From: an uncultured Prevotellaceae bacterium
GTDB lineage: Bacteria; Bacteroidota; Bacteroidia; Bacteroidales; Bacteroidaceae
Reading direction: 5' to 3'
NCBI GenBank assembly: GCA_900318555.1
Contig: ONKX01000005.1
Location: forward strand, 32,759 to 96,758
Length of the DNA: 64,000 nucleotides
The position numbers and the translations under genes are program-made. The notes beneath the pieces were generated by a model, which had not been told where the DNA came from, did not search any database, and worked only from the letters and a program-made list of their open reading frames with translations. Shown piece after piece: positions 5,123-42,711 of this stretch. Numbering within the stretch: the stretch's first letter is position 1; each line of letters begins with the position of its first letter.

Positions 5123-6616
5123 ATGGCACAGGGACAGATACAGGAACAGCGGCTCACGCAGCAACAGAAACTGACGCAGAGCATTACGCAGCAACAGTTG
5201 TTGCAGGCGCAACTCACTGAGTTGCCCATTACCCAACTGCTGGAACGTATCAAGACCGAGATGGACGACAACCCTGCGCTGGAACTCTCCCCAGAAGAAA
5301 ATCTAGATAATCTAGATCCTCTAGAAAATCTAGACACCCCCAAAAACGACACCGACGACTACGAACAGGAGGAGCGCCAATCTGCTCTGGATGCTGCCTT
5401 GGAGTCTATTGGTCGCGACGACGAGGACCTGCCGGTCTATCAAGGCGGCCAGTCCAATCAGGAGGATCGCGAGGAAATGGTCTATGGCCAGACGGAATCG
5501 TTTATGGATCAGCTGAACGAACAGATGAACATGGCCAACATCACCGAACGCCAGCGCGACATCATGGAATATCTCATTGGTTCGTTGGACGATGACGGAC
5601 TGCTGCGCAAGTCGCTAGATAACATCAGCGACGAACTGGCCATCTATCACCATCTCGACGCTACGACGCACGAAATAGAACAAGTACTGCTGCTGTTACA
5701 AGAGTTTGACCCTGCCGGCATCGGAGCACGTTCGCTGCAGGAATGTCTGTTGCTGCAGATTCAACGGCGCGACCCGTCCCGTCTGAGAGACCTCATGGAG
5801 AAAACCATCAGCGAATATTTTGAGCTTTTCACCAAGAAACACTGGCAACGCCTGCAACAGGTGCTGAAACTGAGTGACCTGCAGGCAGAGACGCTCATTG
5901 CTGAACTACGCAAGTTGAATCCGAAACCCGGTTCTTCCATCAGTGAAACAGTCGGACGTTCCCTGCAACAGATTACCCCTGATTTCATCATCGATACTCA
6001 CGACGACGGCACGGTGACCTTCTCACTGAATGCTGCCGAAGTGCCGGAACTATGCGTCTCGCCGTCGTTCACCGACACGCTGCGCGACTATCAGGACAAC
6101 AAGGAACACCTCAGTCGCCAGATGACGGAGGCTTTGGTGTATACGAAGAAGAAGGTCGAAGCCGCTCAGGGTTTCATCGATGCTATCCAGGTGCGTCGCC
6201 ACACGCTGACCGTTACCATGCGGGCCATCATCCAGTGGCAGCACCGTTTCTTCGAGGATGGCGACGAGGCCTCGTTGCGCCCGATGATACTGAAAGACAT
6301 TGCCGAACGTACGGGACTGGACATCAGTACCATCTCACGCGTCAGCAATTCGAAATACGCCCAGACACGCTGGGGTACATTCCCCTTGCGCCATTTCTTC
6401 AGCGACGGTTATACGACAGCTGATGGTGAGGAACTCTCGACGCGTGAAATCAAAGCCGCCCTTCAGGAACTCGTCGAAGGGGAAGACAAGCGCAAGCCTC
6501 TGAGCGACGAGACACTTAAAGACCTGTTGGCCGAGAAAGGCTATCCCATAGCCCGTCGTACCGTATCGAAATATCGCGAACAACTGGGCATCCCAGTAGC
6601 AAGACTAAGAAAATGA
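5123..6616 (+). CDS. rpoN: RNA polymerase sigma-54 factor RpoN
   Basis: 497 residues with the full sigma-54 architecture: a Gln/Leu-rich region I at residues 1-45 (TQQQKLTQSITQQQLLQAQL) that contacts activators, an acidic variable linker, the core-binding domain (SLDDDGLLRKSLDNISDEL, FDPAGIGARSLQECLL) and the C-terminal DNA-binding part with the helix-turn-helix and RpoN box (ARRTVSKYREQ, about residues 476-486). Residues 59-71 in the acidic linker are encoded by a 9-bp TCTAGA-containing tandem repeat (see repeat entry). The stop overlaps the start of the next gene by 4 nt (ATGA). No sigma-54 activator is encoded in the window. Confidence 0.97.
   Translation: MAQGQIQEQRLTQQQKLTQSITQQQLLQAQLTELPITQLLERIKTEMDDNPALELSPEENLDNLDPLENLDTPKNDTDDYEQEERQSALDAALESIGRDDEDLPVYQGGQSNQEDREEMVYGQTESFMDQLNEQMNMANITERQRDIMEYLIGSLDDDGLLRKSLDNISDELAIYHHLDATTHEIEQVLLLLQEFDPAGIGARSLQECLLLQIQRRDPSRLRDLMEKTISEYFELFTKKHWQRLQQVLKLSDLQAETLIAELRKLNPKPGSSISETVGRSLQQITPDFIIDTHDDGTVTFSLNAAEVPELCVSPSFTDTLRDYQDNKEHLSRQMTEALVYTKKKVEAAQGFIDAIQVRRHTLTVTMRAIIQWQHRFFEDGDEASLRPMILKDIAERTGLDISTISRVSNSKYAQTRWGTFPLRHFFSDGYTTADGEELSTREIKAALQELVEGEDKRKPLSDETLKDLLAEKGYPIARRTVSKYREQLGIPVARLRK
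5299..5334 (+). repeat. In-frame 9-bp TCTAGA repeat, 4 units, inside rpoN
   Basis: Units AAATCTAGA, TAATCTAGA, TCCTCTAGA, AAATCTAGA. In the rpoN frame they read as N-L-D / P-L-E type tripeptides in the acidic linker after region I. Same unit as in murF and the RluA-family gene. Confidence 0.9.
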
Positions 6617-7233
6617 AACGAGAAAAGGAAATCATCTTGGTTGCTCGCATCATGAGCATGGTGTTCACGCCATTCTACCTACCCATCGTAGGACTGGTGG
6701 CACTCTTCGTGTTCAGCTATCTCAGCATGTTCTCCTGGCCCTACAAGCTACAGGTACTACTGCTGACTTATCTGTTCACCATCCTCCTCCCTACCCTGCT
6801 CATCCACCTTTACCGCCGCTATCAGGGCTGGAACCTTATCGAACTGGGCCACCGCGAACGACGCATGGTGCCGTACGTCATCTCCATCATCTGCTATTTC
6901 ACCTGCATCTATGTCATGGAGCGTCTCCACATGCCTCATTTCATGGGTTCTATCGTGGTAGCAGCCTTGACATTGCAGATTGTCTGTGCACTCATCAACG
7001 TCTGGTGGAAGATTTCCACCCACACGGCAGCCATCGGAGGCGTGGGCGGAGCACTCTTTGCCTTTGCCTACTATCTGGGATTCAATCCTGTGTGGTGGCT
7101 TTGTCTGGTATTCATCGTAGGCGGAATTGTCGGCACCAGCCGTATGATTCTGCGCCAACACACGCTGGCTCAGGTGGTTGTCGGATTCTGGACGGGTTTC
7201 TTCAGCGCCGCCATAGCGATACTTTTCCTTTAA
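6613..7233 (+). CDS. PAP2-like integral membrane protein
   Basis: 206 residues with about five to six hydrophobic segments. The C-terminal half keeps a reduced PAP2 signature: STHTAAIGG (in place of the PSGH-type motif) followed by RMILRQHTLAQVVVGFWTG, where Arg and His match the third PAP2 motif. This suggests a lipid phosphatase or transferase fold, but the first PAP2 motif (KxxxxxxRP) is weak (GHRERRMVP). It is translationally coupled to rpoN by a 4-nt overlap and followed by purE after a repeat-filled spacer. Confidence 0.65.
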   Translation: MKREKEIILVARIMSMVFTPFYLPIVGLVALFVFSYLSMFSWPYKLQVLLLTYLFTILLPTLLIHLYRRYQGWNLIELGHRERRMVPYVISIICYFTCIYVMERLHMPHFMGSIVVAALTLQIVCALINVWWKISTHTAAIGGVGGALFAFAYYLGFNPVWWLCLVFIVGGIVGTSRMILRQHTLAQVVVGFWTGFFSAAIAILFL

Positions 7234-7240
7234 AACATCG

Positions 7241-7296
7241 TAATAACGGAATAACGAAATCACGGAATAACGATATAACGATATAACGAAATAACG
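7241..7296 (+). repeat. 8-bp tandem repeat in the spacer before purE
   Basis: Seven perfectly phased 8-bp units: TAATAACG, GAATAACG, AAATCACG, GAATAACG, ATATAACG, ATATAACG, AAATAACG. They occupy almost the whole spacer between the stop at 7231-7233 and the purE ATG at 7305. Related to the array before rpoN (5093-5116). Confidence 0.92.
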
Positions 7297-7304
7297 AAAA
7301 AAAT

Positions 7305-7811
7305 ATGACCCCATTAGTAAGCATTATCATGGGCAGCACTTCTGACCTGCCCATTATGGAAAAAGCCTGTAAGCAACTCAACGACTTACAGATTCCGTTT
7401 GAAGTCAACGCTCTCTCGGCACACCGCACACCCGAAGCTGTAGAAGAGTTTGCCCGTGGCGCCAAAGAACGCGGACTGAAAGTCATCATCGCCGCAGCTG
7501 GCATGGCCGCAGCACTGCCTGGCGTCATTGCCGCCTCAACGACACTGCCAGTCATCGGTGTACCCATCAAGGGAATGCTCGACGGACTGGATGCCATGCT
7601 CTCGATTATCCAGATGCCTCCAGGCATTCCTGTAGCTACCGTTGGCGTGAATGCCGCACAGAATGCAGCCATCCTCGCTGTCGAAATGCTGGCACTCACT
7701 GATGATGCCATTGCCCAGCGACTTGCCGACTACAAGAGCGGCCTCAAGGCTAAGATTGAAAAGGCAAATAAGGACTTAGCAGAAGTGAAGTATGAGTACA
7801 AGACGAATTAG
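7305..7811 (+). CDS. purE: 5-(carboxyamino)imidazole ribonucleotide mutase PurE
   Basis: 168 residues, class I PurE size. Converts N5-CAIR to CAIR in de novo purine synthesis. Diagnostic motifs are present: IIMGSTSDLP at the N-terminus, the catalytic SAHRTPE loop, AAAGMAAALPGV and GVPIKGMLDGLDAMLSIIQMPPGIPVATV. The 3' end overlaps ispG by 20 nt, so the two are co-transcribed. In other Bacteroidales purE and ispG are commonly neighbours, often with gcvH upstream; here a PAP2-like gene is in that place. Confidence 0.97.
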   Translation: MTPLVSIIMGSTSDLPIMEKACKQLNDLQIPFEVNALSAHRTPEAVEEFARGAKERGLKVIIAAAGMAAALPGVIAASTTLPVIGVPIKGMLDGLDAMLSIIQMPPGIPVATVGVNAAQNAAILAVEMLALTDDAIAQRLADYKSGLKAKIEKANKDLAEVKYEYKTN

Positions 7812-9246
7812 TACGGTTTGTCACGTAGGTAATATCGCCATCGGTGGCGATAATCCCATCCGCATACAGTCGATGGCAACTACGGACACCAACGACACGG
7901 AAGCCAGCGTGGCTCAGGCCAAACGCATCATTGATGCTGGTGGTGAACTGGTTCGTTTCACCACCCAAGGCACTCGCGAAGCGGAGAACATGAAGAATAT
8001 CTCTGCCCGTCTGAAGGCTGACGGCTATAACACACCGTTGGTGGCTGACGTTCATTTCACGGCACATACGGCTGATGTCGCTGCGCAGTACTGCGAAAAG
8101 GTCCGCATCAATCCCGGCAACTACGTCGATCCGGGCCGTACTTTCAAACATCTGGAATATACCGACGAGGAATATGCCGAGGAACTGAAGAAGATTGAGG
8201 CCAAGCTCGTGCCTTTTATCAATATCTGTAAGGAGCATCACACCGCCGTGCGTATCGGTGTAAACCACGGTTCGCTCTCCGACCGCATTATGTCGCGCTA
8301 CGGCGATACACCTGAGGGAATCGTCGAGAGTTGTATGGAGTTTCTGCGCATCTTCCGTCGAGAACAGTTCGACGACGTTGTGATTTCCATCAAAGCCTCG
8401 AACACCGTCGTGATGGTCACCACCGTGCGTCTGCTGGTGAAAACGATGGATGCTGAGGACATGCACTATCCCTTGCACCTCGGCGTTACTGAAGCCGGTG
8501 AAGGCGAGGACGGACGCATCAAGAGTGCTGTTGGCATTGGTGCTTTGCTTACCGAGGGCATTGGCGATACCATCCGCGTGTCGCTCAGCGAGGAACCCGA
8601 ATGCGAAATTCCCGTTGCACGCAAGTTAGTGGAGCTCATTCCCGAATGCACCCGCCTGCGCGCCGAAGCCGAAGCCAGCATCAAGGATGACACTATCACC
8701 CTTGACCTGTCGGGCGTTGAAGATGTTGCTGTGACACAGCAACAAACGGAACAGGAGGCTTGGGAGACCCTCCAACTCACAGCCGCCATGGCCGTAGGAG
8801 CCCTCCTCATCGACCGCCGCGCCACAAAGCTGATTATCCAAAGTGGTTCGCGGTTCTTTGACCACGGCTCAAAGTGTGGCGTTGCATTTGGCCGCGAACA
8901 ACTCGTCACCCTTGCTGACGCCATTCTCCAAGCCGCCCGCATCAAATTCACCAAGACGGAATACATCTCTTGTCCGGGCTGTGGCCGCACGCTTTACAAC
9001 CTGCAGGAAACCATCGCGCGCATAAAAGCCGCTACCAGCCACCTGGTGGGTCTGAAGATAGGTATCATGGGCTGTATTGTCAATGGTCCCGGTGAAATGG
9101 CGGATGCCGACTATGGCTACGTCGGAGCAGGCCGTGGCAAGATATCACTTTACCGCGGAAAGGAATGCGTCGAGAAGAACATTCCCGAGGAAGAAGCCGT
9201 CGAACGCCTACTTCAGCTCATCGAGGCGGAAGTAAAAGCGCAATGA
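7792..9246 (+). CDS. ispG: 4-hydroxy-3-methylbut-2-enyl diphosphate synthase IspG
   Basis: 484 residues. Converts MEcPP to HMBPP in the MEP isoprenoid pathway. The N-terminal TIM barrel (about 1-275: IQSMATTDTNDTEA, VADVHFTAHTA, GVNHGSLSDRI, LGVTEAGEGEDGRIKSA) and the C-terminal Fe-S domain (CPGCGRTLYNLQE, GIMGCIVNGPGEMADADYGYVGAGRGKI) are intact, including the three cluster cysteines. The sequence is of the long Bacteroidetes/plant type, but the central A* domain of that type is almost absent: only about 50 residues (280-330) separate EIPVARKLVEL from the ETLQLTAAMAVGALLID segment. A palindrome coding VAVTQQQ sits in this shortened linker. Confidence 0.95.
   Translation: MSTRRISTVCHVGNIAIGGDNPIRIQSMATTDTNDTEASVAQAKRIIDAGGELVRFTTQGTREAENMKNISARLKADGYNTPLVADVHFTAHTADVAAQYCEKVRINPGNYVDPGRTFKHLEYTDEEYAEELKKIEAKLVPFINICKEHHTAVRIGVNHGSLSDRIMSRYGDTPEGIVESCMEFLRIFRREQFDDVVISIKASNTVVMVTTVRLLVKTMDAEDMHYPLHLGVTEAGEGEDGRIKSAVGIGALLTEGIGDTIRVSLSEEPECEIPVARKLVELIPECTRLRAEAEASIKDDTITLDLSGVEDVAVTQQQTEQEAWETLQLTAAMAVGALLIDRRATKLIIQSGSRFFDHGSKCGVAFGREQLVTLADAILQAARIKFTKTEYISCPGCGRTLYNLQETIARIKAATSHLVGLKIGIMGCIVNGPGEMADADYGYVGAGRGKISLYRGKECVEKNIPEEEAVERLLQLIEAEVKAQ
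8725..8743. repeat. In-frame palindrome GTTGCTGTG-A-CACAGCAAC in ispG
   Basis: Perfect 9-bp arms around a single A, coding for residues 312-318 (VAVTQQQ region). The core TTGCTGTGACACAGCAA recurs twice in the helix-hairpin-helix barrel gene (34138-34162 and 35221-35251). Confidence 0.9.
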
Positions 9247-9283
9247 GCCCGAAGAGAAAAATCGCTTAGCCCGTAATAAAAGT

Positions 9284-9316
9284 CCGTTTTGTCCGTTGCA
9301 AAACAGGACAAAACGG
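9284..9316. terminator. Hairpin between convergent ispG and the acetyltransferase gene
   Basis: Perfect 11-bp stem CCGTTTTGTCC (9284-9294) / GGACAAAACGG (9306-9316) with an 11-nt loop. On the minus strand it is followed by ACTTTTATT, so it could terminate the minus-strand gene. On the plus strand there is no U-run. Confidence 0.5.
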
Positions 9317-9325
9317 GTAGATAAA

Positions 9326-9409
9326 GTTAAAACTGCGTCGGCGGACGTTAAAACTGCGTCGATGAATGATAAAACTGCGACAATGGATGACAAAACAGCG
9401 TCGCAGTTT
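9326..9409 (+). repeat. 21-bp imperfect tandem repeat, 4 copies
   Basis: Four phased 21-bp units, each with a core close to AAAACTGCGTCG, fill the stretch up to the stop codon (9408-9410) of the minus-strand gene. A plus-strand reading frame crosses it (KTAS repeats) but has only a TTG start and no other support. Confidence 0.85.
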
Positions 9410-10550: not shown

Positions 10551-10554
10551 GCTG

Positions 10555-10562
10555 CAAAGATA
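10555..10562 (-). promoter_or_regulatory. -7 box TATCTTTG, 4 nt before the start codon
   Basis: CAAAGATA on the plus strand reads TATCTTTG on the minus strand, immediately upstream of the ATG at 10550. With the usual short distance from this box to the transcription start, the mRNA would begin at or next to the A of the ATG. Confidence 0.65.
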
Positions 10563-10637
10563 CGAATAAACGAGTAAAAAGCCAAAAGTTTTTGGACTTT
10601 TTCGAGTTGAAGTACCTTCACCAAGGGTGAAAGTTAT

Positions 10638-10677
10638 AAAAAAGCAGCGAACCTGTGCAAGGTTCGCTGCTTTTTTT
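10638..10677 (-). terminator. Intrinsic terminator of the 1760-residue T9SS cargo gene
   Basis: Stem AAAGCAGCGAACC / GGTTCGCTGCTTT with loop TGTGCAA, flanked by A-runs and T-runs on both sides, 15 nt past the stop of the minus-strand gene. Confidence 0.9.
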
Positions 10678-10691
10678 AGTTATGATTGTTA

Positions 10692-15974: not shown

Positions 15975-16034
15975 GTTGCAAATTGTTTTGGTTTGACTTA
16001 TTATAATAATTTAAATATTAAACAGTTTTGCTTG

Positions 16035-16066
16035 CAAAGGTAAGTATTTTATTCGAAACTACCAAA
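16035..16066 (-). promoter_or_regulatory. Promoter of the 1760-residue T9SS cargo gene
   Basis: Minus-strand TACCTTTG (plus 16035-16042) with TTTG exactly 20 nt upstream (plus CAAA at 16063-16066). The predicted leader is about 50 nt. Confidence 0.8.
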
Positions 16067-16083
16067 TAATTCGCTAAAAAACA

Positions 16084-17466
16084 TTAATTTTGGAAGTCTG
16101 GAGCGACAGAAAGGTGCATATTTATGCCTGTAACAGGATGATGAAACCAAATTTCTGCTGCATGAAGCATCAGTCGCTGACCTTTTTCGCGGGTGCCGTA
16201 AAGCTCGTCACCAACAATGGGACGACCCAAACCGTCGGGGTGGGCACAATGGATGCGCAGTTGGTGGGTGCGACCGGTCTGAGGCCATAATGCCACGAGG
16301 CTATCTGACAGGAATTCATAATCTGTAACGGCGCGTTTACCGTGCTCGGGATCCACAAGCTGTCGCGGACGGTTCATCGGGTCCGGCCGCAGGGGCAAAC
16401 TGATGGTGCCACGTTTATCTAGAATATCTAGTTTTTCTAGAGCATCTAGAGATTCTAGAACCGCTAGATATTTTTTCTTCACCTGGTGTTTCACGAACTG
16501 CTCCTGTAAGTTACGATAGACCTCCAGCGTTTTCGCCACGATGAGCAGACCGCTGGTAGCCATATCCAAGCGGTGGGCAATCATACTACCAGGATAACGC
16601 TCCTGCATAATGGTTTCAACGCTATATTCTTCTACGCGGCCCGGCGCGGAGAGCAATCCACTGGGTTTGTTGACCACCAGCAACCATTCATCCTCATAGA
16701 CAACGGGCAGTTCCTGACGTTCGAAAGCCAGCGACTCCGGGTCGGGATCAACATCGAGCCCTTGCAGCATCCACGTCAGGACGGGTTTGCACTTGCCCCT
16801 GCAGGCTGGATAATAATTCAGATGATGGCGAAGCTCTGTCTTCGTCGTCTCGCCCCACCAGAATTCCGCCATACACAGCGGCTTCAAGCCCTGCTGATAG
16901 GCATATTGCAACAGTTTAGGCGCACAACAGTCACCAGTCCCTCCCGGAGGCAGCGGATATTTACGCAACAGTTTCGGACGGTTGTAATATTCCTGCCAAA
17001 TATCAATAAGATCCTTCACCTCCCCACGAGCATTCAACAGCCGATATTGGTGGAAGAGCCAAGTCTGCAGCTCCTGTGAGAGCTGCTTAGAGCTAAAGTC
17101 ACTAGAATCCCTAGACGATCTAGATGATCTAGATATTCTAGAGATCTCCCTTTCCTGCGTCTTGAAATACCCATCAGGCTGTTGCGCGTCGAAGATGGGC
17201 GGTACGAAATACGGCCAGTCGTTCCGTCCTGCCAACAGCCCGCTATAGGCTGCCAAAAAGCCCTGCTGCCCTGGCGACATCTCCACCACCAACACTCCAA
17301 ACATTTTTCCTTTATCTGCATCCTCTAGAATCTCCTCATGACTAGCAATATAGGCCTGCACCGCCTTAGCAGCCAATTGGCACAAAGGGTGCGGCTCGTA
17401 AGCGAAGGGATAGGTAAACCGCTTTGGCGGTGCTATCCTGCTCTCTAACGGATGCACATATTTCAT
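16084..17466 (-). CDS. RluA-family pseudouridine synthase with extra N-terminal domain
   Basis: 460 residues. The C-terminal 220 residues are a pseudouridine synthase: VVNKPSGLLSAPGR, the catalytic HRLDMATSGLLIVAK (Asp in RLD), PLRPDPMNRPRQ, and the WPQTGRTHQLRIH motif. Residues 1-215 are an N-terminal domain of unknown function with GVLVVEMSPGQQGFLAAYSG, PPGGTGDCCAPKLLQYAYQQGLKPLCMAEFWWG and a Cys-containing ACRGKCKPVL near its end. The RNA target cannot be assigned. Two separate 9-bp TCTAGA arrays are inserted in frame: residues 109-123 (Arg-Ser-rich) and residues 333-351 (Leu-Asp-rich), one in the N-terminal domain and one in the catalytic domain between YLAVLE and RGTISLPL. Confidence 0.92.
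   Translation of the reverse strand: MKYVHPLESRIAPPKRFTYPFAYEPHPLCQLAAKAVQAYIASHEEILEDADKGKMFGVLVVEMSPGQQGFLAAYSGLLAGRNDWPYFVPPIFDAQQPDGYFKTQEREISRISRSSRSSRDSSDFSSKQLSQELQTWLFHQYRLLNARGEVKDLIDIWQEYYNRPKLLRKYPLPPGGTGDCCAPKLLQYAYQQGLKPLCMAEFWWGETTKTELRHHLNYYPACRGKCKPVLTWMLQGLDVDPDPESLAFERQELPVVYEDEWLLVVNKPSGLLSAPGRVEEYSVETIMQERYPGSMIAHRLDMATSGLLIVAKTLEVYRNLQEQFVKHQVKKKYLAVLESLDALEKLDILDKRGTISLPLRPDPMNRPRQLVDPEHGKRAVTDYEFLSDSLVALWPQTGRTHQLRIHCAHPDGLGRPIVGDELYGTREKGQRLMLHAAEIWFHHPVTGINMHLSVAPDFQN
16415..16468 (-). repeat. In-frame 9-bp TCTAGA repeat, 6 units, in the RluA-family gene (catalytic domain)
   Basis: Plus-strand units TTATCTAGA, ATATCTAGT, TTTTCTAGA, GCATCTAGA, GATTCTAGA, ACCGCTAGA. 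On the coding strand they give L-D/L-E tripeptides between conserved catalytic segments. Confidence 0.92.
17098..17142 (-). repeat. In-frame 9-bp TCTAGA repeat, 5 units, in the RluA-family gene (N-terminal domain)
   Basis: Plus-strand units GTCACTAGA, ATCCCTAGA, CGATCTAGA, TGATCTAGA, TATTCTAGA. Here the reading frame is shifted relative to the other arrays, so the unit codes for S-R-x tripeptides (RISRSSRSSRDSS) instead of L-D-x. Confidence 0.92.
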
Positions 17467-25858: not shown

Positions 25859-28800
25859 TTAGTGTTGACCATGAGTACTGTCAATCACGAAGTCAGCGAA
25901 GCGTGTGATCCAACCCCACTCATACTCAATGGTGTAAGGAATGTAAACATCGAAGATCTGTACATTGTGACCATTGTTCTGATAGTAGACTGTACCGAAG
26001 CGCTGCTTCTGGGCATGATACTTCAGAGTAGGATTCTCGAAGTTCGGTGTACCCATGAAGTTCTCGATATTGGTCTCCTTGTATGAGCTGTTGAAGTTGT
26101 AGATACCGCGTGCAATGCCAGCAGGTGTCATATCAGGACCTTCGTTGAAGTTGAAGATAGACAGACCGGAATTACCAGCGCCACCAAATGCATCACTTGC
26201 AGCCCACAGGTCAACATCTGTAGAGATAGTGTTCAGCGTGTTGTAAGCATTGCCATAGTGCAGGTTGGTGTAAACGCTCAGCGGATCCAGATCCAGAATA
26301 ATTGACTTCAACTGGTAGTAAGCCCAGAACCAGTAGTGATCCTCGTACATGTAACCCTGGTTAGGCTTGTTACCACGCCAGTCGTACAGCTTCAGGTAGT
26401 CAATCATGTGGAAGTAGTTCTCGTTCGTGGTAGCATCCAGAGCAGGCTTGATAGGCTCAGCATCGGTGTTGATAGGACGCTGCCAAGAAATCAAGAATGT
26501 ATTCAGGTTGTCGTTGGTCTTTTCAGGATAGGTGTACATAGCAACTTCACAACCAAGGTCAGCAACGAGACCTACCCAAGTACGGAGCTCCTTATAGATA
26601 TTCGTGTGGTTGCCCTCGTAACCATAAGCATTCAGGACGAGCTTAGCCTCCTCGAAGCTGGTCTGGTTAGCCTTCAGCAGCTGGATCTCACCAGTAGCCT
26701 GATTCAGTTCAGCAATCTTGATATACGTCTTGGTATCAGGATTGTAAGAGTACAGATCCTTGTTAGCAAATACACCACGAGTGTAGTCAATAGCACACTT
26801 AGTCATGATAGACTCCAGATCGCTCTCAATCCACTTGTGAGCATCCTGCTTGATATTATCACTTACAGGCTCAGCTTCGAATCTAGGATCGAGGTTATTA
26901 TAATCGTGGGTCCAAACATACTTGCAGTACATCAAATCCCAATCACCATCAGCATTGAACGTTCCACCGGCCTGAGGAGTAATCCAACGAGTCTCCTTCT
27001 TCACCTTACCGCTCTTCAGCAACTTAGTCTGGAGATCAGCAGGCAGCTTCTCGAAGTCCTCAACAACAGACTTAATAGTCATCGGAGCGATTACAGTACC
27101 AGCCTGTACATAAGGACTTGCAGCAATAGCCTCAGAAATTCTCGTGCTACCATCAGATGTTCTGGTGTAGGTGTAGAATTCGAGCTTCTCGGGCTTCGGA
27201 GCGAAGTAGTGCTTGTACTTCTTACCACCAACATTCCACTTGTTACCAACAACAGAGTTCAGGATAGTACGGTTGAAGGTCGTGATACGGAAGTCGTTTC
27301 TCGGAGCCTGGATATCCCAAGCCAGAGCAGACCAGTTCACAGCACTTTCAGCAGGAATGCCAACGTTGTTAGCACCAGTGTTCCAGTGATACCAGTAGTT
27401 AGTATCCTTAGTCTTATAAGCAACCTTGTTGTCGCCACGAGTGATCTTCATAGTCATCTTCACCCACAGATATGGATAAGGAGCACTATAGTTGTTCACC
27501 TCACGCATACGTCTTTCGTCCTTAGCAACATAACGGAACCAGCGAGTTACAGTTACAGGATACTGATCATCCTTCAGGTCGTGAGTGATGTACTCAATTT
27601 CCTCAGGAGACAGATACCAGTGGAATACGTGGTTGGTTGTACCCTCACCATTAGGCTTGTAGTAAACAACACCAAGACCCTGGTTGGTCTGGAATCCAGC
27701 AATCTTATTCTCCTCGTATGCAGAAGCACCACCATTCTTCATAGCCTTCAGAGCTTCAGCAGAAACGTTCTGACCGAACTTATCACCGAAGTTGTAGAGC
27801 TTCAGCTGGTACTGAGCGTGACCGTCAGCTGCATCCTGAACACGACGTGCATCAGGAGAAACATACTTACCGTCATCACCATAGACCGTACCACCAGTCT
27901 TACAATCAGCCCAATAGTAATCATCGAAAGCAAGCATCTTCTCGTTGTTCAGAGAGGTCTGCAGAACGATGTTAGAGAACTGTGACCAGTTAGAAGACAG
28001 AGTCAGACCATTGCAGAGGTCGAATGTCTTTGCAGTTTCAGGATAAACAATCTCCAAGTTATCGGGCTCGTGATTGATGTGGAGCAGGATATAACCATCG
28101 AGGAGAACCTTGTTGGCCTCGTTCTTCAGCAGTACGCGAACCAGAGGCTCACGGTCAACAGAAGTAGTGCTCTCAACATCCTGAGTCTTACCATCAACAG
28201 TTACACTCTTAACCTTAATGATACCAGTCTTGTTCATCTTAGTACCATTATTGTCAGTGTTATTGGTAGCTACCCAAGAATCCCAGTTACCATCCCAGTC
28301 GTTAAATGCAGCATAACGAGAATCGTGAGTCTGGTTAGTGCTGTTATAGTAGTCAACGAATTGGAACTCATAGTGCAGACCGAATGCGGCTTCCTCACCA
28401 TACTTCCAGCAACCTACCTCGTAAACATCCTCGAAGTCGTTGTTGTTAGCAACAGCCTTCTCCTTCTTCTTCAGGTTCTCCTTCATGAAGTGAACACCGA
28501 GATACTTGGTCAGGTCAACCTCATCGCCAACCCAAAGCTCAAGAGCAGCACCACGGGGATCGTTCAGAGCCTCCTCAGGAGAGTCCCAAACGTGGATACG
28601 GTTTGCAGTACAATCGAAGTTGTTAACCTTGCAAGTACCTTCCTCGTCACCATCTTGGTTTCCAGGACCATAGCTATAGCCAGGCATGTTCGGCTCCTTA
28701 TACTCAGGCTTATTGTACCAAATCAGACCTTCGAGCTGTACGCGAGTCGGAACGAGCAGAGCATAGTCAGAAGTAACGATACCCTCCTCACCATTGTTCA

Positions 28801-30247
28801 GCTGAAGAGCTACAGTATTGTCTGTGTTATTGTAGTTTGCGTCATACTTTGACAGACCGAACCAGTCCCAATCACCATACTTATAAGTAGGAGTAGCTGT
28901 ATCAAGTCCATCAGGATTGAGTGTCTCGTCTGTAGGCCAGGGAGAGAGACGGTTAGGATGCTCAATCTGGATACCAGCGGTCAGCACACCTTCAGATGCG
29001 GTGAAGGAACCGTTTCTCTGGCTCCAAATACCATACTTACCATATTCCTTAGCCTCAAGCTTACCATAGATACCATAAGTAGCAGCCTTAGGAGTAGCAC
29101 CAACCCAGAAATTCTGAGGAGAGGTGATGTTCAACTTATTAGCAGCAGCACGCGTGTTATAGTAAATCACGTCGGGCTCAAGCACATTGAACTTAGGAGC
29201 ATTAACGCTGTAATCAGCAGCTGCAGAAGCGGGGTTCATGTGATACTGAACAGCCCAAGCGGGACCGTAGATCCACTCGTTAGCAGCAGTCAGAGCCTTC
29301 TGCTTCTTTGCATACTTGTTACCGCCAGTCGGTCTAATCTTCTTAGCATCAACATCGTAGTAACGAGCCAATGTGTTGGGGATGTAGTCATAGAGAGGAT
29401 CCTGAATGTCCTGCAGCTCCTTAGCATCAGTACCATGGTGGCTCAGGTCTTTCCAGTCACTCTTAATTGTATTTCTCTCCAAGAACTGACCGCCAATCCA
29501 AGGATACTCGATACCCTCAATACCATCGAGGTAGAGCTGGGGAACGAATACCAGGCTCTTCAGCGTGCCATTCAGAGCAATCGTAACAGCAGTAACGTTA
29601 CCGTTAGAATCAACCAGACCGCTCAGAGTCAGAGTGTTGTTGCTGCTATCCCATGCTGCGTTAACAACAGGATTACCAGTACCACCCTGGTTGCTCCACT
29701 TAATGTCAGTCTTGGTCTTGGTGCCAGTGTTAGGATCAACTACATAGAAATAGCCATCCTCACCGGGAACGTAGTAAACGCCATCAGCGCCCTTCTCGCC
29801 ACCGGCAGCACCGTCCTTGCCGTCCTTACCGTCTTTACCGTCCTTGCCGTCAAGGCCGTCCTTGCCGTCCTTGCCGTCCTTACCATTCTCGCCCTTGGCT
29901 TTGTACTCGGTCTTGGTACCGTTCTTGTACCAGTAACCGTCGTCACCGATAGTCCAAACGTCACCGTCCTTACCATCAGCACCAGCAGCACCATCCTTTC
30001 CATTAAGGATGTCATAAGATTGCTTGTTGGTGATAATTCTAACACCACCTGCAATTTGCTCAACTTTCTGCAGAACTTCGCCATTTTCGATGGACTTCTG
30101 AAGCGCATCAAGTGTCGCCTTGAGCTGGTCGACTTGTCCTTGTAAGTTCTTGATGTCGTCATCGTAGTCCTTACAAGAAACGAACGCACTTCCTGCGGCA
30201 AACAGAATTGCCACTGAAAGCATTGCACTCAAAATTTTTTTGTTCAT
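25859..30247 (-). CDS. Giant collagen-like lipoprotein (PL29 N-terminal-domain-like)
   Basis: 1462 residues. Lipoprotein signal (LFAAGSAFVSC, Cys25), then a coiled-coil segment (about 27-65: IKNLQGQVDQLKATLDALQKSIENGE) and collagen-like Gly-X-Y runs (about residues 83-150, GKDGKDG and GAAGADG blocks) of the kind annotated as PL29 lyase N-terminal domains. The remaining 1300 residues are aromatic and Asn-rich, with no recognised enzyme motif. Codon use is strongly biased, leaving very long antisense open frames, consistent with high expression. It has its own promoter, a leader of about 150 nt and a terminator. A trimeric surface structure is an inference from the coiled coil plus Gly-X-Y. Confidence 0.85.
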   Translation of the reverse strand: MNKKILSAMLSVAILFAAGSAFVSCKDYDDDIKNLQGQVDQLKATLDALQKSIENGEVLQKVEQIAGGVRIITNKQSYDILNGKDGAAGADGKDGDVWTIGDDGYWYKNGTKTEYKAKGENGKDGKDGKDGLDGKDGKDGKDGKDGAAGGEKGADGVYYVPGEDGYFYVVDPNTGTKTKTDIKWSNQGGTGNPVVNAAWDSSNNTLTLSGLVDSNGNVTAVTIALNGTLKSLVFVPQLYLDGIEGIEYPWIGGQFLERNTIKSDWKDLSHHGTDAKELQDIQDPLYDYIPNTLARYYDVDAKKIRPTGGNKYAKKQKALTAANEWIYGPAWAVQYHMNPASAAADYSVNAPKFNVLEPDVIYYNTRAAANKLNITSPQNFWVGATPKAATYGIYGKLEAKEYGKYGIWSQRNGSFTASEGVLTAGIQIEHPNRLSPWPTDETLNPDGLDTATPTYKYGDWDWFGLSKYDANYNNTDNTVALQLNNGEEGIVTSDYALLVPTRVQLEGLIWYNKPEYKEPNMPGYSYGPGNQDGDEEGTCKVNNFDCTANRIHVWDSPEEALNDPRGAALELWVGDEVDLTKYLGVHFMKENLKKKEKAVANNNDFEDVYEVGCWKYGEEAAFGLHYEFQFVDYYNSTNQTHDSRYAAFNDWDGNWDSWVATNNTDNNGTKMNKTGIIKVKSVTVDGKTQDVESTTSVDREPLVRVLLKNEANKVLLDGYILLHINHEPDNLEIVYPETAKTFDLCNGLTLSSNWSQFSNIVLQTSLNNEKMLAFDDYYWADCKTGGTVYGDDGKYVSPDARRVQDAADGHAQYQLKLYNFGDKFGQNVSAEALKAMKNGGASAYEENKIAGFQTNQGLGVVYYKPNGEGTTNHVFHWYLSPEEIEYITHDLKDDQYPVTVTRWFRYVAKDERRMREVNNYSAPYPYLWVKMTMKITRGDNKVAYKTKDTNYWYHWNTGANNVGIPAESAVNWSALAWDIQAPRNDFRITTFNRTILNSVVGNKWNVGGKKYKHYFAPKPEKLEFYTYTRTSDGSTRISEAIAASPYVQAGTVIAPMTIKSVVEDFEKLPADLQTKLLKSGKVKKETRWITPQAGGTFNADGDWDLMYCKYVWTHDYNNLDPRFEAEPVSDNIKQDAHKWIESDLESIMTKCAIDYTRGVFANKDLYSYNPDTKTYIKIAELNQATGEIQLLKANQTSFEEAKLVLNAYGYEGNHTNIYKELRTWVGLVADLGCEVAMYTYPEKTNDNLNTFLISWQRPINTDAEPIKPALDATTNENYFHMIDYLKLYDWRGNKPNQGYMYEDHYWFWAYYQLKSIILDLDPLSVYTNLHYGNAYNTLNTISTDVDLWAASDAFGGAGNSGLSIFNFNEGPDMTPAGIARGIYNFNSSYKETNIENFMGTPNFENPTLKYHAQKQRFGTVYYQNNGHNVQIFDVYIPYTIEYEWGWITRFADFVIDSTHGQH

Positions 30248-30755: not shown

Positions 30756-30766
30756 TTAAGCGGGTG

Positions 30767-30865: not shown

Positions 30866-30896
30866 CAGTCAGAAACAAACACTTATTCTAATATAT

Positions 30897-32006: not shown

Positions 32007-32055
32007 GGTTAACGGTTAATGATTAATGGTTATTGGTTAACGTTTATTGGTTATG
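32007..32055 (+). repeat. 7-bp tandem repeat exactly filling the spacer before the GT4 gene
   Basis: Seven phased units: GGTTAAC, GGTTAAT, GATTAAT, GGTTATT, GGTTAAC, GTTTATT, GGTTATG. The first begins directly after the stop codon (TAG, 32004-32006) and the last contains the ATG start codon (32053-32055). Confidence 0.93.
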
Positions 32056-33180: not shown

Positions 33181-33193
33181 CGACAGCGGCACA

Positions 33194-35287: not shown

Positions 35288-35291
35288 GGCG

Positions 35292-35909: not shown

Positions 35910-35912
35910 ATA

Positions 35913-36899: not shown

Positions 36900-36900
36900 A

Positions 36901-38661: not shown

Positions 38662-38667
38662 CGGTTG

Positions 38668-39132
38668 TTATTCGTCTAAGTTAACAGGAATATCACGCTT
38701 AATACTCTGTTCCAGAGAGATCAGCGTCTCAGTAGCCACCACGCCAGGAATATCCTGCAAGCGACCATTCAGCAGATGCATAAGCTGCTCATTGTCACGG
38801 GCATAGAGCTTCACCATCATGGTGTACGGGCCTGTCGTGAAGTGACACTCTACCACCTCTGGAATGTGCTGGAGGCGTTCGACGACTGTCTTATACATAG
38901 AACCACGCTCCAACGTAATACCCACATAGGTACAGGTAGAGTAACCCAGACTCTTGGGATTGATGTCAAAACCACTTCCCATGATGACTTCACCCTCAAT
39001 GAGGTGCTGAACACGCTGGTGAATGGCAGCTCGCGACACGTTACACTCTGCGGCTACATCCTTGAACGGGATGCGCGCATTCTTCGACAGGATACTGAGT
39101 ATCTTTTTGTCAAGATTGTCAATCTTATCCAT
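38668..39132 (-). CDS. Lrp/AsnC-family transcriptional regulator
   Basis: 154 residues from the ATG at 39132 (the longer frame begins within the promoter). N-terminal helix-turn-helix (DNLDKKILSILSKNARIPFKDVAAECNVSRAAIHQRVQHLIEGEVI) and C-terminal RAM ligand-binding domain (YVGITLERGSMYKTVVERLQHIPEVVECHFTTGPYTMMVKLYA). First gene of a five-gene operon of peptidases and envelope proteins, so amino-acid-responsive control of that operon is a fair inference. Confidence 0.94.
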   Translation of the reverse strand: MDKIDNLDKKILSILSKNARIPFKDVAAECNVSRAAIHQRVQHLIEGEVIMGSGFDINPKSLGYSTCTYVGITLERGSMYKTVVERLQHIPEVVECHFTTGPYTMMVKLYARDNEQLMHLLNGRLQDIPGVVATETLISLEQSIKRDIPVNLDE

Positions 39133-39165
39133 TTCTTTTTTCGTTGTTAGTTTACAAATTGTAAG

Positions 39166-39196
39166 CAAAAGTACGCATTTTTGTTGAAACTAGCAA
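39166..39196 (-). promoter_or_regulatory. Promoter and possible operator of the Lrp-headed operon
   Basis: Minus-strand TACTTTTG (plus 39166-39173) with TTG 20 nt upstream (plus CAA 39194-39196). The -33 region lies in the inverted repeat TGTTGAAACTAGCAACA (arms TGTTG/CAACA), a plausible autoregulatory Lrp site. Confidence 0.6.
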
Positions 39197-39239
39197 CATT
39201 TTGCTACTAAAATATGTAAAAATCGTGCATTTTGCCTAC

Positions 39240-39866
39240 TTATCGTTTCCGAATGAGCGTTAAACCATCCCTTAAAGGCAAGATAACACGTTCGACACGC
39301 TGGTCGCAAAGCACATAATCATTAAAGGTCTCGATACCCTGCGTCTGTGCGTCACGATCGTAGGCAGCATCAACCACATGACCGTCCCACAACGTGTTGT
39401 CAGCCAGGATAAAACCACCAGGACGCAACACGGAAAGCGCCATTTCGTAGGTCTCGCGATAGGTACGTTTGTCACCATCAATAAAAGCCATATCGAACGT
39501 CACGCCTAAACGTGGAGCCTCCGTCACAGCATCACCAATGATAAAACGGATTTTGTCAGCAACAGGAGATTTCTCAATCCAAGGACGCGTGAAATCCTCC
39601 TGTTCATCGTTGATTTCAAAAGTATAGACTAAGCCTCCTTCCTCCAGTCCTTCTGCCATACAAATGGCCGAATAGCCACTGAAAGTGCCTACTTCGAGGA
39701 TATTTTTGGGGCGAATCATCGTCACCAGCATCTTCAGCAAGCGCCCCTGCAGATGGCCTGAAGCCATCCGACCATGCAGCATATGGATATTCGTAGCACG
39801 CCAAAGCCGATAGAGGTAATCGGGCTCCGGGTCGATGTGCTGAAGGATATAGTCGTCGAGGGTCAT
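39240..39866 (-). CDS. Class I SAM-dependent O-methyltransferase
   Basis: 208 residues, the catechol O-methyltransferase-like family. SAM site ILEVGTFSGYSAICMAEGL, then YTFEINDEQEDF, IIGDAVTEAP, the metal-binding DMAFIDGDKRTYRETYEMAL and ILADNTLWDGHVVD. The substrate is unknown. Its ATG overlaps the aroQ stop by 4 nt. Confidence 0.92.
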   Translation of the reverse strand: MTLDDYILQHIDPEPDYLYRLWRATNIHMLHGRMASGHLQGRLLKMLVTMIRPKNILEVGTFSGYSAICMAEGLEEGGLVYTFEINDEQEDFTRPWIEKSPVADKIRFIIGDAVTEAPRLGVTFDMAFIDGDKRTYRETYEMALSVLRPGGFILADNTLWDGHVVDAAYDRDAQTQGIETFNDYVLCDQRVERVILPLRDGLTLIRKR

Positions 39867-40279
39867 ACCAGCAAAGCCTCAATGGCCAGACGGTAAGAGT
39901 CGAGACCAAAGCCACAGATGACACCCTTGCAAGCAGCAGAGATGAACGAATGGTGGCGGAATTCCTCGCGCTGATGGACGTTGGAGATGTGTACTTCTAT
40001 GACAGGACATTTCAACGAACGGATGCAGTCGTGGAGCGCCACAGAAGTGTGGGTATAGGCACCGGCGTTGAGCACGATTCCATCGAAAGAAAAGCCAACC
40101 TCCTGCATCTTGTTGATCAGTTCGCCCTCAACGTTGCTCTGATAGTAAGCTATCTCAACATCAGGATATTTTGCCTGCAACTGCGGCAGATACTGCTCGA
40201 ACGACGAAGAACCATAGATGCCTGGTTCGCGAACACCCAACAAGTTCAAATTAGGACCATTAATGATTTGAATTTTCAT
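39863..40279 (-). CDS. aroQ: Type II 3-dehydroquinate dehydratase
   Basis: 138 residues. Shikimate pathway enzyme, dodecameric type II. Motifs: IIDGPNLNLLG-like INGPNLNLLGVREPGIYG at the N-terminus with the catalytic Tyr, YYQSNVEGELINKMQE, IVLNAGAYTHTSVALHDCI, and IEVHISNVHQREEFRHHSFISAACKGVICGFG with the active-site His. Divergent from xerD. Confidence 0.96.
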   Translation of the reverse strand: MKIQIINGPNLNLLGVREPGIYGSSSFEQYLPQLQAKYPDVEIAYYQSNVEGELINKMQEVGFSFDGIVLNAGAYTHTSVALHDCIRSLKCPVIEVHISNVHQREEFRHHSFISAACKGVICGFGLDSYRLAIEALLV

Positions 40280-40296
40280 ATTTCAAAACTTTTTTG

Positions 40297-40318
40297 TACC
40301 TTTGTGGCGGCAAAGATA
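40297..40318. promoter_or_regulatory. Face-to-face promoters of aroQ and xerD
   Basis: TACCTTTG (40297-40304, plus, xerD) and TATCTTTG on the minus strand (plus CAAAGATA 40311-40318, aroQ) are only 6 nt apart and point at each other. Each transcript would start in the other -7 box. Confidence 0.7.
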
Positions 40319-40327
40319 CGAATTTAA

Positions 40328-41260
40328 ATGGAAACTGACAAGAAAAGCAAGGCAAATAATGTTGTAAAGGCCTACAAAAGGTACCTGAAACTGCAACGGG
40401 GGTATTCTGCAAATACCCTTGATGCCTATTTGCGCGACTTAGAGAAGCTGCTGAACTACCTGGAAGAAGAAAAGAAACGCGTTCAGGACGTGCAACTTTC
40501 AGACCTACAGCATTTTGCCGCATCTTTGCACGACATTGGCATCCATCCTCGTTCGCAATGCCGCATCCTAAGCGGAGTACGCGCTTTCTTCCGTTTCCTC
40601 CAATTGGAGGGCTATCGTGACGACGATCCCACAGAACTGCTGGAATCTCCCGTCTTAGGCGATCATCTGCCTGAAGTCCTGTCAACTAGCGAAATTGACC
40701 TGTTAGAACAATCTATCGACCTGTCAAAGTGGGAAGGCCAACGCAATCGCGCTATCATCGAAGTACTGTTTAGCTGTGGTTTGCGCGTCAGCGAACTGGT
40801 GAACCTGAAACTCAGCAACCTTTATTTGGAAGAACAATACATCCGCGTCTTTGGCAAGGGTTCCAAGGAACGTTTGGTTCCCATCTCGCCCAAAGCCATC
40901 AAGGAGCTAAACTACTGGTTTATGAACCGTAACCTCATGAAAATCAAGGCCGGAGAGGAAGACTACGTGTTCCTCAATCGTCGCGGAGCACACCTCACGC
41001 GTACCATGATACTTATTATGATCAAGCAACAGGCTGTTGAGGCAGGCATCACCAAGACTATTTCGCCCCACACGCTTCGACACTCCTTTGCCACAGCACT
41101 TTTGGAAGGTGGAGCCGACCTGCGCGTCATTCAGGCTATGCTGGGTCACGAATCGATAGGAACGACGGAAATCTACACCCATATCGACATGAGTACCCTG
41201 CGACAACAGATACTGGAACACCATCCTCGCAACATGAAAACGCCACAAGAAGAAAAATAA
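40328..41260 (+). CDS. xerD: Site-specific tyrosine recombinase XerD
   Basis: 310 residues: N-terminal SAM-like core-binding domain (YKRYLKLQRGYSANTLDAYLRDLEKLLNYL) and catalytic domain with the Arg (SCGLRVSELVNL), Lys (GKGSKERLVPI), HxxR (ISPHTLRHSFATALLEGGADLRVIQAMLGHESIGTTEIYTHI) and terminal Tyr. Acts with XerC at dif to resolve chromosome dimers. Chromosomal context (aroQ, murF) argues for the housekeeping enzyme over a mobile integrase. Confidence 0.93.
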   Translation: METDKKSKANNVVKAYKRYLKLQRGYSANTLDAYLRDLEKLLNYLEEEKKRVQDVQLSDLQHFAASLHDIGIHPRSQCRILSGVRAFFRFLQLEGYRDDDPTELLESPVLGDHLPEVLSTSEIDLLEQSIDLSKWEGQRNRAIIEVLFSCGLRVSELVNLKLSNLYLEEQYIRVFGKGSKERLVPISPKAIKELNYWFMNRNLMKIKAGEEDYVFLNRRGAHLTRTMILIMIKQQAVEAGITKTISPHTLRHSFATALLEGGADLRVIQAMLGHESIGTTEIYTHIDMSTLRQQILEHHPRNMKTPQEEK

Positions 41261-41295
41261 ATGAAGAAATATTTCCGTAGTCCGTTTTTTCTTTG

Positions 41296-41303
41296 TACCT
41301 TCG
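41296..41303 (+). promoter_or_regulatory. -7 box TACCTTCG, 4 nt before the murF start
   Basis: TACCTTCG is followed by CAGC and then the ATG at 41308, so the transcript probably starts at the ATG (leaderless). Confidence 0.6.
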
Positions 41304-41307
41304 CAGC

Positions 41308-42711
41308 ATGAAAATAGAAGAACTATACCAGCTATACCAGCAACATCCGTGTATCACGACGGATTCGCGCAACTGTCCAGAGGGAAGCATCTTTCTGGCC
41401 TTAAAGGGTGAGTCGTTCAATGGCAACCAGTTTGCAGTGTCAGCCCTCGAAAAGGGCTGTAGCTACGCAATTATCGACGAGCCACAGGTTCTAGAAAATC
41501 TAGAACATCTAGATCATCTAGACAATCTAGAGCCTCTAGATGCTTTAAAGCAACGCCTCATCCTCGTTGGCGACTGTCTGCAGACCTATAAGGATCTGGC
41601 TCGCGAGCACCGTCGCCAGTTCGACATTCCTGTCATCGGCATTACTGGTACCAACGGCAAGACGACCACGAAGGAACTGATTCGTGCTGTGTTGGCTGAG
41701 TGTTATAACGTCATGGCGACGGAGGGTAACTTCAACAACGACGTTGGCGTTCCCAAGACGCTGTTCCGCCTCAACGACAGCCACGATATTGCCGTTGTAG
41801 AGATGGGTGCCTCGCATCCTGGCGACATCAAGACACTCGTAGAGACTGCTGAGCCCAACTGTGGCCTGATCACCAACGTAGGACGCGCCCATCTGCAAGG
41901 CTTTGGCTCGTTTGAGGGCGTCTGCAAGACGAAGGGCGAGCTCTACGATTTCCTGTTGGCACACGATGGTCCGCTCTTTGTCAATCGCGACAACGAGCAC
42001 CTGATGAAGATGGTAAGAGAGAGAGGTGAGAGGTTAGAGGTGAGAGGTGAGAGAATAGCTCAGCCCGACATCTATTATTATGGTCAGAGTGACGCTGAGG
42101 ATATCCTCATTCGTGGCGAGGTCATCTCGTGTGCACCCTTCCTCAAGTTCCGCTGGCGCGAGCAGGACGCTGATGCTGGTTACGTGGGCGAATGGTTTAC
42201 CGTCCAGACGCATCTCATTGGTGCCTACAATTTGGATAACATGCTGGCAGCCATCACGATAGGCTACGTCAACAACATCCCTTTCGAGCAGATTAATCAC
42301 GCTCTCGAGAGCTACGTGCCTACCAACAACCGCTCACAATTGACGGAAACGGAGAAGAATCACCTCATCGTTGACGCCTATAACGCCAACCCTACTTCGA
42401 TGAAGGCCGCACTAGACAACTTCCGACTGATGGAGGTATCGCCCAAGATGGCCATTCTGGGTATGATGGGCGAACTGGGCGACGTCTCGCAAGAGGAGCA
42501 CCAGAAGATTATCGCCCTGCTTGAAGAAGCCCATTTTGACGAGGTCTGGCTCGTGGGCGCCGAGTTCCAAAAGGCACAGAGCCGCTTCCGCACCTTCGCC
42601 AATGTCGACGAGGTGAAGCAGGCTATCGCCCAAGAGCAGCCCGTTGGCCGTTACATCCTCATCAAAGGTTCGAACAGCACTCATCTTTACGAGCTGCCTA
42701 CCCTCCTTTAA
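41308..42711 (+). CDS. murF: UDP-MurNAc-tripeptide - D-Ala-D-Ala ligase MurF
   Basis: 467 residues from the ATG at 41308 (a start 5 codons upstream would lie in the promoter). Three Mur ligase domains: N-terminal (TDSRNCPEGSIFLALKGESFNGNQFA), central ATPase (P-loop GITGTNGKTTTKELI, GNFNNDVGVPKTLFRL, VVEMGASHPGDI) and C-terminal (VDAYNANPTSMKAALDNF, LGMMGELGDVS). Two tandem-repeat insertions are in frame: residues 60-78 (9-bp TCTAGA array, before the P-loop) and about 236-249 (7-bp GTGAGAG array). Essential peptidoglycan precursor enzyme of the cytoplasm. Confidence 0.96.
   Translation: MKIEELYQLYQQHPCITTDSRNCPEGSIFLALKGESFNGNQFAVSALEKGCSYAIIDEPQVLENLEHLDHLDNLEPLDALKQRLILVGDCLQTYKDLAREHRRQFDIPVIGITGTNGKTTTKELIRAVLAECYNVMATEGNFNNDVGVPKTLFRLNDSHDIAVVEMGASHPGDIKTLVETAEPNCGLITNVGRAHLQGFGSFEGVCKTKGELYDFLLAHDGPLFVNRDNEHLMKMVRERGERLEVRGERIAQPDIYYYGQSDAEDILIRGEVISCAPFLKFRWREQDADAGYVGEWFTVQTHLIGAYNLDNMLAAITIGYVNNIPFEQINHALESYVPTNNRSQLTETEKNHLIVDAYNANPTSMKAALDNFRLMEVSPKMAILGMMGELGDVSQEEHQKIIALLEEAHFDEVWLVGAEFQKAQSRFRTFANVDEVKQAIAQEQPVGRYILIKGSNSTHLYELPTLL
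41487..41540 (+). repeat. In-frame 9-bp TCTAGA repeat, 6 units, in murF
   Basis: Units GGTTCTAGA, AAATCTAGA, ACATCTAGA, TCATCTAGA, CAATCTAGA, GCCTCTAGA, coding for L-E/L-D tripeptides between YAIIDEPQ and RLILVGDC of the N-terminal domain. Confidence 0.93.
42013..42053 (+). repeat. In-frame 7-bp GTGAGAG repeat in murF
   Basis: About six units (GTAAGAG, AGAGAG, GTGAGAG, GTTAGAG, GTGAGAG, GTGAGAG; one is 6 bp) coding for RERGERLEVRGER between LMKM and the IYYYGQ strand. Confidence 0.85.

Follow-up and report, generated by a model that had tools for sequence, protein, structure and literature searches.

The 64,000-nucleotide stretch of DNA analysed here (the window) comes from an uncultured Prevotellaceae bacterium (assembly GCA_900318555.1, contig ONKX01000005.1, positions 32,759 to 96,758 of the forward strand). 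It carries four tandem arrays in rpoN, murF and a gene of the RluA family, names that are backed by Pfam, and in each array the palindrome TCTAGA recurs every 9 bp with three other bases between copies (Table 1). TCTAGA occurs 18 times in the window, and 17 of these copies lie inside the four arrays at 9-bp spacing. Arrays were searched for with the pattern (TCTAGANNN)3, that is, three units. The control was the reversed word AGATCT, which has the same letters and is also a palindrome. The window contains eight three-unit matches, against none in 100 dinucleotide shuffles, and its TCTAGA arrays have Tandem Repeats Finder scores of 46-83.

Table 1. TCTAGA arrays and the solitary TCTAGA in the window
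Feature	Position	Strand	Gene and context
TCTAGA array, 4 perfect units, spacers TAA TCC AAA	5302..5334	+	rpoN 5123-6616, frame NLDNLDPLENLD, between Sigma54_AID match and core-binding domain
TCTAGA array, 6 units, 4 perfect plus TCTAGT and GCTAGA	16418..16468	-	RluA-family gene 16084-17466, frame LESLDALEKLDILDK, within PseudoU_synth_2 match
TCTAGA array, 5 units, 3 perfect plus ACTAGA and CCTAGA	17098..17142	-	RluA-family gene 16084-17466, frame ISRISRSSRSSRDSSD, outside synthase domain
TCTAGA array, 6 perfect units, spacers AAA ACA TCA CAA GCC	41490..41540	+	murF 41293-42711, frame LENLEHLDHLDNLEPLD; unit number varies among relatives
Lone TCTAGA outside any array	17324..17329	not assigned	RluA-family gene

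An earlier note on this DNA had described these arrays as an in-frame 9-bp repeat in three unrelated housekeeping genes. All four are real and have a 9-bp period, although only 17 of the 21 units claimed are perfect TCTAGA and three starts shift to 5302, 16418 and 41490; the second RluA array has an extra decayed unit at 17092. Reading the open reading frames (ORFs) confirms that each of the four arrays keeps the frame of its gene. The array at 17098-17142 is read TCT AGA NNN (Ser-Arg-x) and the other three xxT CTA GAx (x-Leu-Asp/Glu), the third frame being closed because it contains TAG. The same note placed every array in a loop or linker. This fits the rpoN array, which falls between a Sigma54_AID match at residues 10-55 (below the curated cut-off) and the core-binding domain at residues 120-315, and it fits the second RluA array, but the murF and first RluA arrays lie inside Pfam matches.

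The source genome and its relatives

The window arrays belong to a genome-wide family. In the source genome (3.26 Mb in 131 contigs, 89.4% complete), the search for three or more units that the earlier note had suggested returned 51 matches, against none for AGATCT. We read 24 arrays closely, the four in the window and 20 fetched from at least 23 outside it. Fourteen of the 24 lie inside ORFs with Pfam matches, the three window genes included. Beyond the window these ORFs are DPP-IV (where, by eye, the array is upstream of the likely start), GlcNAc 2-epimerase, DEAD helicase, release factor (PCRF/RF-1), homocysteine methyltransferase, AroB, GH95, a GltD-like oxidoreductase, a ferredoxin-type protein and a DUF5112 kinase. 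Six of the remaining ten arrays lie in ORFs without a Pfam match, and at the other four the longest frames are shorter than 90 codons.

Carriage is patchy. In a genus sample, 31 of 150 genomes (the source genome included) have a match, with counts of up to 172, and AGATCT arrays are absent from 149 of the 150, with one array in G009. A further 17 of 32 close relatives carry TCTAGA arrays. In a sample of the order, which held two genomes of the same family besides the source genome, four units were found in 2 of 247 genomes with the source genome counted (1 of 246 others); the other carrier is G622, and its congener G522 lacks such arrays. Over all samples the reversed-word controls gave 0 to 2 matches per genome. 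The earlier note had named two observations that would count against its proposal, namely conservation at the same positions across distant Bacteroidales and equal frequency of other hexamers of the same composition. Neither is seen: close relatives have sites in common (rpoN, murF, aroB, RluA), but carriers are rare in the order, while TCTAGA arrays are genome-wide and AGATCT arrays are at or near zero, which upholds a common generating process tied to one word.

A scan of contigs from named genomes gave at least 117 stretches with arrays. Among the matches listed, most are from metagenome-assembled genomes (MAGs) of Prevotella and other Bacteroidales, many of them ruminant, and Victivallales, Lentisphaeria and Kiritimatiellae also appear. 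A recount in 14 carrier genomes found matches in all 14, ranging from 2 to 285; one carrier labelled Proteobacteria has 2. In the Victivallales order, 13 of 47 genomes carry TCTAGA arrays, with counts of up to 285, and whole-genome counts this high are hard to explain by contamination. Cultured carriers are Prevotella sp. tc2-28 (14 matches), Prevotellaceae bacterium MN60 (40) and Prevotella sp. tf2-5. A Prevotella MAG from goat reticulum (L106) has the same rpoN array as the source genome, which is accordingly taken to be a rumen Prevotella. Three-unit matches also occur in viral contigs, in 27 stretches. When 30 relatives are placed on a MurF tree, the label "eight or more matches" requires 5 changes, against 10.2 when labels are shuffled, and carriage is therefore partly inherited. 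The label for G249 (43) is an estimate, a looser pattern giving 46 forward and 47 reverse, and the threshold of eight is unaffected.

Array length, core and spacer

Counting decayed units, the murF array has 6, 5, 6, 5, 4 and 4 units in G000, G249, G258, G294, G033 and G007. Between close species array length changes mainly in steps of 9 or 18 bp, including +9 and -18 bp, the exception to whole-unit steps being one array (L208/L233) with a 1-bp difference in a spacer. In species of about 93% identity (82-86% in the RluA region) the arrays differ mostly by single units or pairs. At 117 loci, which were chosen for four units at 9 bp, the distance from one TCTAGA to the next is 9 bp in 543 cases, 18 bp in 38, 6 bp in two, 10 bp in one and some other value in 11; distances of 8, 11 or 12 bp do not occur. 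Of the 128 arrays in these loci, 66 have no open frame of 150 codons (some frames are cut by contig ends), and the 9-bp spacing is kept inside or outside long reading frames.

The earlier note also held that the arrays were inserted into their genes. Loop lengths in murF agree with this: loops with arrays have 27-36 residues between anchors, and those of most relatives without a TCTAGA array have 19-25, although some murF loops with other inserts have 27-40 and three loops could not be anchored. In aroB, however, array loops of 47-53 residues fall inside the 39-66 range of other loops, which makes simple insertion only a possible reading there. In the murF genes of G327 and G074 (L176, L182), an insert coding PLNSPKGG (or PLNPPKGG)...LPSFGGEGGG replaces the array.

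Within arrays, the hexamer is kept and the spacer drifts. We compared adjacent units in 16 loops (eight murF, eight aroB) picked for a recognisable array, a set drawn apart from the source genome, array-less relatives and the murF loops of G149 and G368, which are decayed; identity is 0.877 in the core and 0.369 in the spacer. In these loops CTA fills the Leu position of 68 of 81 units, against 5.5% of Leu codons in 21 window ORFs. These figures bear on the idea that arrays reflect protein-level selection for Leu-Asp/Glu repeats. Among the 62 arrays in open frames of at least 150 codons (predicted frames, not confirmed genes), 42 read x-Leu-Asp/Glu and 20 read Ser-Arg-x, and the excess of the former agrees with such selection, as do several aroB relatives that keep Leu at every third residue with other codons. 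But Leu is almost always encoded by CTA, a rare codon, and there are also arrays that read Ser-Arg or lie in no recognised gene. Codon use rules out protein-level selection as the sole cause, and as an explanation of the arrays we consider it highly improbable; it may shape where arrays survive.

Alignments of orthologous units from six array sets (rpoN, the two in RluA, murF, an array of G249 and G294, and aroB) separate the two parts of the unit. Under the most gap-lenient alignment, 36 of 828 core positions and 60 of 414 spacer positions differ, and stricter alignments give 0.189-0.220 for the spacer. Leu codons differ in 10 of 98 cases in arrays versus 233 of 964 in flanks, and third positions of same-residue codons in 21 of 300 versus 1396 of 8090, where array codons include spacer bases. 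Two independent species pairs give P = 0.009 (Leu) and 0.006 (third positions); the pairs behind the preceding counts are non-independent, and the core-spacer test on independent pairs used rounded fractions from the unit alignments. Between close species the spacers thus evolve at a rate close to neutral, and the core changes about three times less. A description of the spacers as hypervariable is rejected on the gap-lenient alignment and the synonymous-site yardstick.

Two processes fit this core constraint, selection on binding and homogenisation through unit turnover. Under the first, the arrays would be functional, each a cooperative platform for a host protein that binds tandem sites (for example, a ribbon-helix-helix protein), with selection keeping the cores. 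MetJ, omega and CopG are proteins that bind tandem sites, and the fixed 9-bp spacing and palindromic core would suit platforms of that kind. Lower synonymous-site divergence in arrays points the same way, as does the rarity of TCTAGA outside them: it ranks 1, 1, 3 and 7 for avoidance among the 64 palindromic hexamers in four samples, being the most avoided in two. The avoidance is, however, similar in array-free genomes (6 seen versus 71.5 expected from dinucleotides) and in the source clade (4 versus 53.6), and higher-order composition, which predicts 5.8 and 5.5, respectively, explains it. In addition, sites and unit numbers vary between relatives and a regulator was not found, and we regard functional binding arrays as doubtful. 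TCTAGA is the XbaI site, and restriction as the cause of its rarity is rejected on the same two grounds, the similar rarity in array-free genomes and the higher-order composition.

The spacers also bear on how arrays may begin. In 20 regions fetched from three genomes of the Victivallales order, 35 of 48 adjacent spacers are identical, against 1 of 45 in the source genome (P about 1e-13), and the 24 arrays of three or more units there (L316-L335) have 10 different modal spacers. Because spacers in this order are mostly uniform inside arrays and varied between them, we propose that an array would start when TCTAGA and three neighbouring bases are duplicated in tandem. Replication slippage would then lengthen and shorten it, and the spacers would drift later while the hexamer is kept at the DNA level. 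Within genes, arrays would be tolerated only in two of the three frames and at places where extra x-Leu-Asp/Glu or Ser-Arg-x is harmless. Spacers two units apart are more similar than those one unit apart (lag-2 identity 0.564 per base versus 0.494 +/- 0.015 in within-array shuffles, for the 110 of 122 arrays that have 6 spacers or fewer), which points to frequent steps of 18 bp. The earlier note's "template slippage on a preferred seed" is supported both by the mostly uniform Victivallales-order arrays and by length steps of mainly 9 or 18 bp.

Its other suggestion, a mobile short element spreading by self-copying to new sites, fares worse. One motif in many dispersed copies is what such an element would leave, and 12 of the 24 Victivallales-order arrays have ACC/GGT as their modal spacer; in that order, therefore, either the preferred unit extends beyond the hexamer or some arrays were derived from others. 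Copies should have sequence in common beyond the recognition word, and on this point the Victivallales order is less clear than the source genome, where the arrays are not recognisable copies of each other: three pairs of arrays there have spacer strings in common, against 1.7 +/- 1.3 in shuffles (P 0.23), which is no excess. Nor is sharing between arrays in excess in nine other assemblies, with three to six arrays each. We consider copying from site to site very unlikely.

Choice of the repeated word

A second palindrome behaves in the same way. CTATAG-NNN forms a separate genome-wide family in 29 of the 150 genus genomes, with up to 109 matches, and in 10 of 42 further genomes. Genomes with both words include G167, G358, G220, G339 and G408. 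In the genus sample 7 of 150 genomes carry both, where 6 are expected, and this overlap rules out mutual exclusion of the two words. In listed places of G167, G358 and G234 many CTATAG spacers are, by eye, GNA or TNA (or the reverse complement), and the CTATAG core may extend to ACTATAGT. Words also differ between relatives at single loci. The aroB loop holds different in-frame 9-bp words in different relatives, namely TCTAGA-NNN, CTATAG-NNN (G167; L263 1947-1991) and CTCCGA-NNN (G339; L255 1947-1982), and the murF loop of G138 (L169 2272-2299) holds a GACAAC-NNN repeat; the murF and aroB loops are hot spots for in-frame repeats.

The reading we prefer, and hold a shade below even confidence, is that these arrays are degenerate 9-bp satellites, a genome-wide family seeded on the palindrome TCTAGA by slippage together with a recogniser of the palindrome that acts in trans. 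The trans-acting part is the less certain one: the word (TCTAGA here, CTATAG in other genomes) would be set by a palindrome-recognising protein that acts by promoting duplication at its site or by selecting for retention of the array. We infer such a factor because one word recurs at many sites, carriers are patchy in distant groups, a second palindrome exists, and the reversed-word controls give 0 to 2 matches.

Several observations weigh against this reading. A candidate trans protein was not found, the single family tested being PF01797 (Y1 transposase/RAYT), which is present in 8 of 13 TCTAGA carriers, 7 of 14 CTATAG carriers, 9 of 20 genomes with neither word and 3 of 5 others, and was not found in the source genome; RAYT transposase is rejected as the agent, since its presence has no association with arrays. 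The two words occur independently, and there is therefore no sign of one switchable system. The genus contains non-palindromic period-9 arrays (ACGAAT, CTCCGA and GACAAC plus NNN), and in 617 kb from 22 genomes, sampled blind to array places, only 3 of 15 period-9 arrays are palindromic. This set consists of 20 array-free genomes plus G009 and G091, three of the array-free stretches being short (340, 3951 and 11435 bases); the 356 kb from the 20 genomes without either word has three non-palindromic period-9 arrays and no palindromic one. The core constraint is drawn from a small number of substitutions, in four genes and four close species, and homogenisation by turnover could mimic it. The ACC/GGT spacer, modal in half of the Victivallales-order arrays, is a further difficulty.

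The alternative that dispenses with a trans factor is ordinary slippage acting in cis. TCTAGA-NNN-TCTAGA can be drawn as a 6-bp stem with a 3-nt loop, in which the cores would template each other's repair (quasi-palindrome correction) while the loops drift. The conserved part is palindromic in both TCTAGA and CTATAG, 18-bp steps are favoured, the genus is rich in repeats of many other words and periods, and as single-stranded DNA the rpoN array (z -3.44) and the murF array (z -3.67) fold better than shuffles. Two shorter perfect runs, however, fold no better than shuffles (z -0.73 and -0.66). Hairpin stability ranks TCTAGA 49 and CTATAG 57 of the 64 palindromes, ranks that rule it out as the chooser of the motif. 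Fold-back copying predicts reverse-complement spacers, and these are rare and not enriched (0.005 of adjacent pairs, versus 0.030 in the between-array and 0.008 in the within-array shuffle), so fold-back synthesis is rejected as well. This account leaves unexplained the recurrence of one word in distant phyla, the use of TCTAGA over AGATCT and the choice of two palindromes with weak hairpins, all of which a trans factor would explain. We judge a purely cis-acting origin unlikely.

Other repeats in the window have periods of 7 to 9 bp. A second period-9 repeat, ATTCGT/ATCCGT plus NNN, lies at 60266-60379 and 61369-61477, around ORF 60318-61379; G249 (ACGAAT/ACGGAT) and G294 (ACGAAT) have related arrays. 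An 8-bp repeat, AATAACGA, has 7.2 copies at 7242-7299, and ATAACG plus two free bases occurs again in G249 and G258. At 42021-42053 a 7-bp repeat, GAGAGGT (4.7 copies, coding RERGERLEVRGER), is the second repeat within murF, and a 9-bp repeat, CCGTCCTTG (7.9 copies), lies at 29811-29881 inside ORF 25859-30247. A FopS small RNA (Rfam RF04319, 75.3 bits) is found at 56443-56511.

Comparison with known systems and significance

The TCTAGA arrays resemble several known systems in part. The HIP1 octamer of cyanobacteria is likewise a genome-wide palindromic word found inside and outside genes, but its copies are single and dispersed, without the fixed period of an array. REP/RAYT palindromes and the Rickettsia palindromic elements are short dispersed palindromes, the latter in frame in genes; their units are longer than ours and are copies of each other, and RAYT genes do not track TCTAGA arrays. 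In-frame repeats of a 25-residue protein motif are similar in dyad symmetry and scattered distribution. They lie, however, in ORFs without assigned function and are thought to spread by gene transfer, whereas the TCTAGA unit is 9 bp of DNA found in unrelated housekeeping genes and outside genes.

As with short tandem repeats, the units lie head to tail at many loci and length changes by whole units. Repetition of the whole unit is absent from the source genome, where three of nine positions are free, and largely present in the three Victivallales-order genomes. We set these arrays apart from plain lineage-specific short tandem repeats because they combine a fixed palindromic core with three free bases. 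Long simple sequence repeats of prokaryotes, with units of 1-11 nt, have been attributed to slippage, multiples of three being likeliest in coding regions (Mrazek et al. 2007 via PMC4679880); as summarised there, such repeats involve the whole unit and any sequence, whereas here the hexamer is set and the rest degenerate. The closest parallel is the TAACTGA heptamer direct repeats of Beggiatoaceae, Cyanobacteria and five Bacteroidetes, which PMC4679880 describes as scattered over distant groups, with no mechanism established. According to the same paper, they too comprise one exact short word in many small arrays per genome, related words doing so rarely, with some overlap with genes. The heptamers, in contrast, repeat the whole 7-mer and are described there as mostly intergenic, upstream of start codons; TCTAGA arrays fix a 6-bp palindrome, leave three bases per 9-bp unit free, are often in frame in housekeeping genes, and have drifting spacers. 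A literature search weighted towards open-access papers, with most subscription papers outside its scope, turned up, among the hits listed, nothing about arrays of TCTAGA or CTATAG in this group.

A bolder proposal, speculative and on balance unlikely, is that a trans-acting activity has spread horizontally among rumen bacteria. It would recognise a palindromic hexamer (TCTAGA, CTATAG, or both in a few genomes) and write or maintain the 9-bp arrays. If this is true, the arrays of each genome, those in essential genes included, would show where the activity had been at work, and its enzyme would carry out site-specific tandem duplication in a way that differs from known transposases and restriction systems.

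The usual view of short tandem repeats in bacteria is that they are perfect and arise from slippage without a sequence rule. The rule here is strict: one palindromic word, one period, two of three frames, a core that is kept and a spacer that is free. It is common to distant phyla, and some genomes have a second word, which makes what chooses a lineage's repeat motif a testable question. The arrays also give in-frame length variation in the essential proteins RpoN, MurF and AroB.

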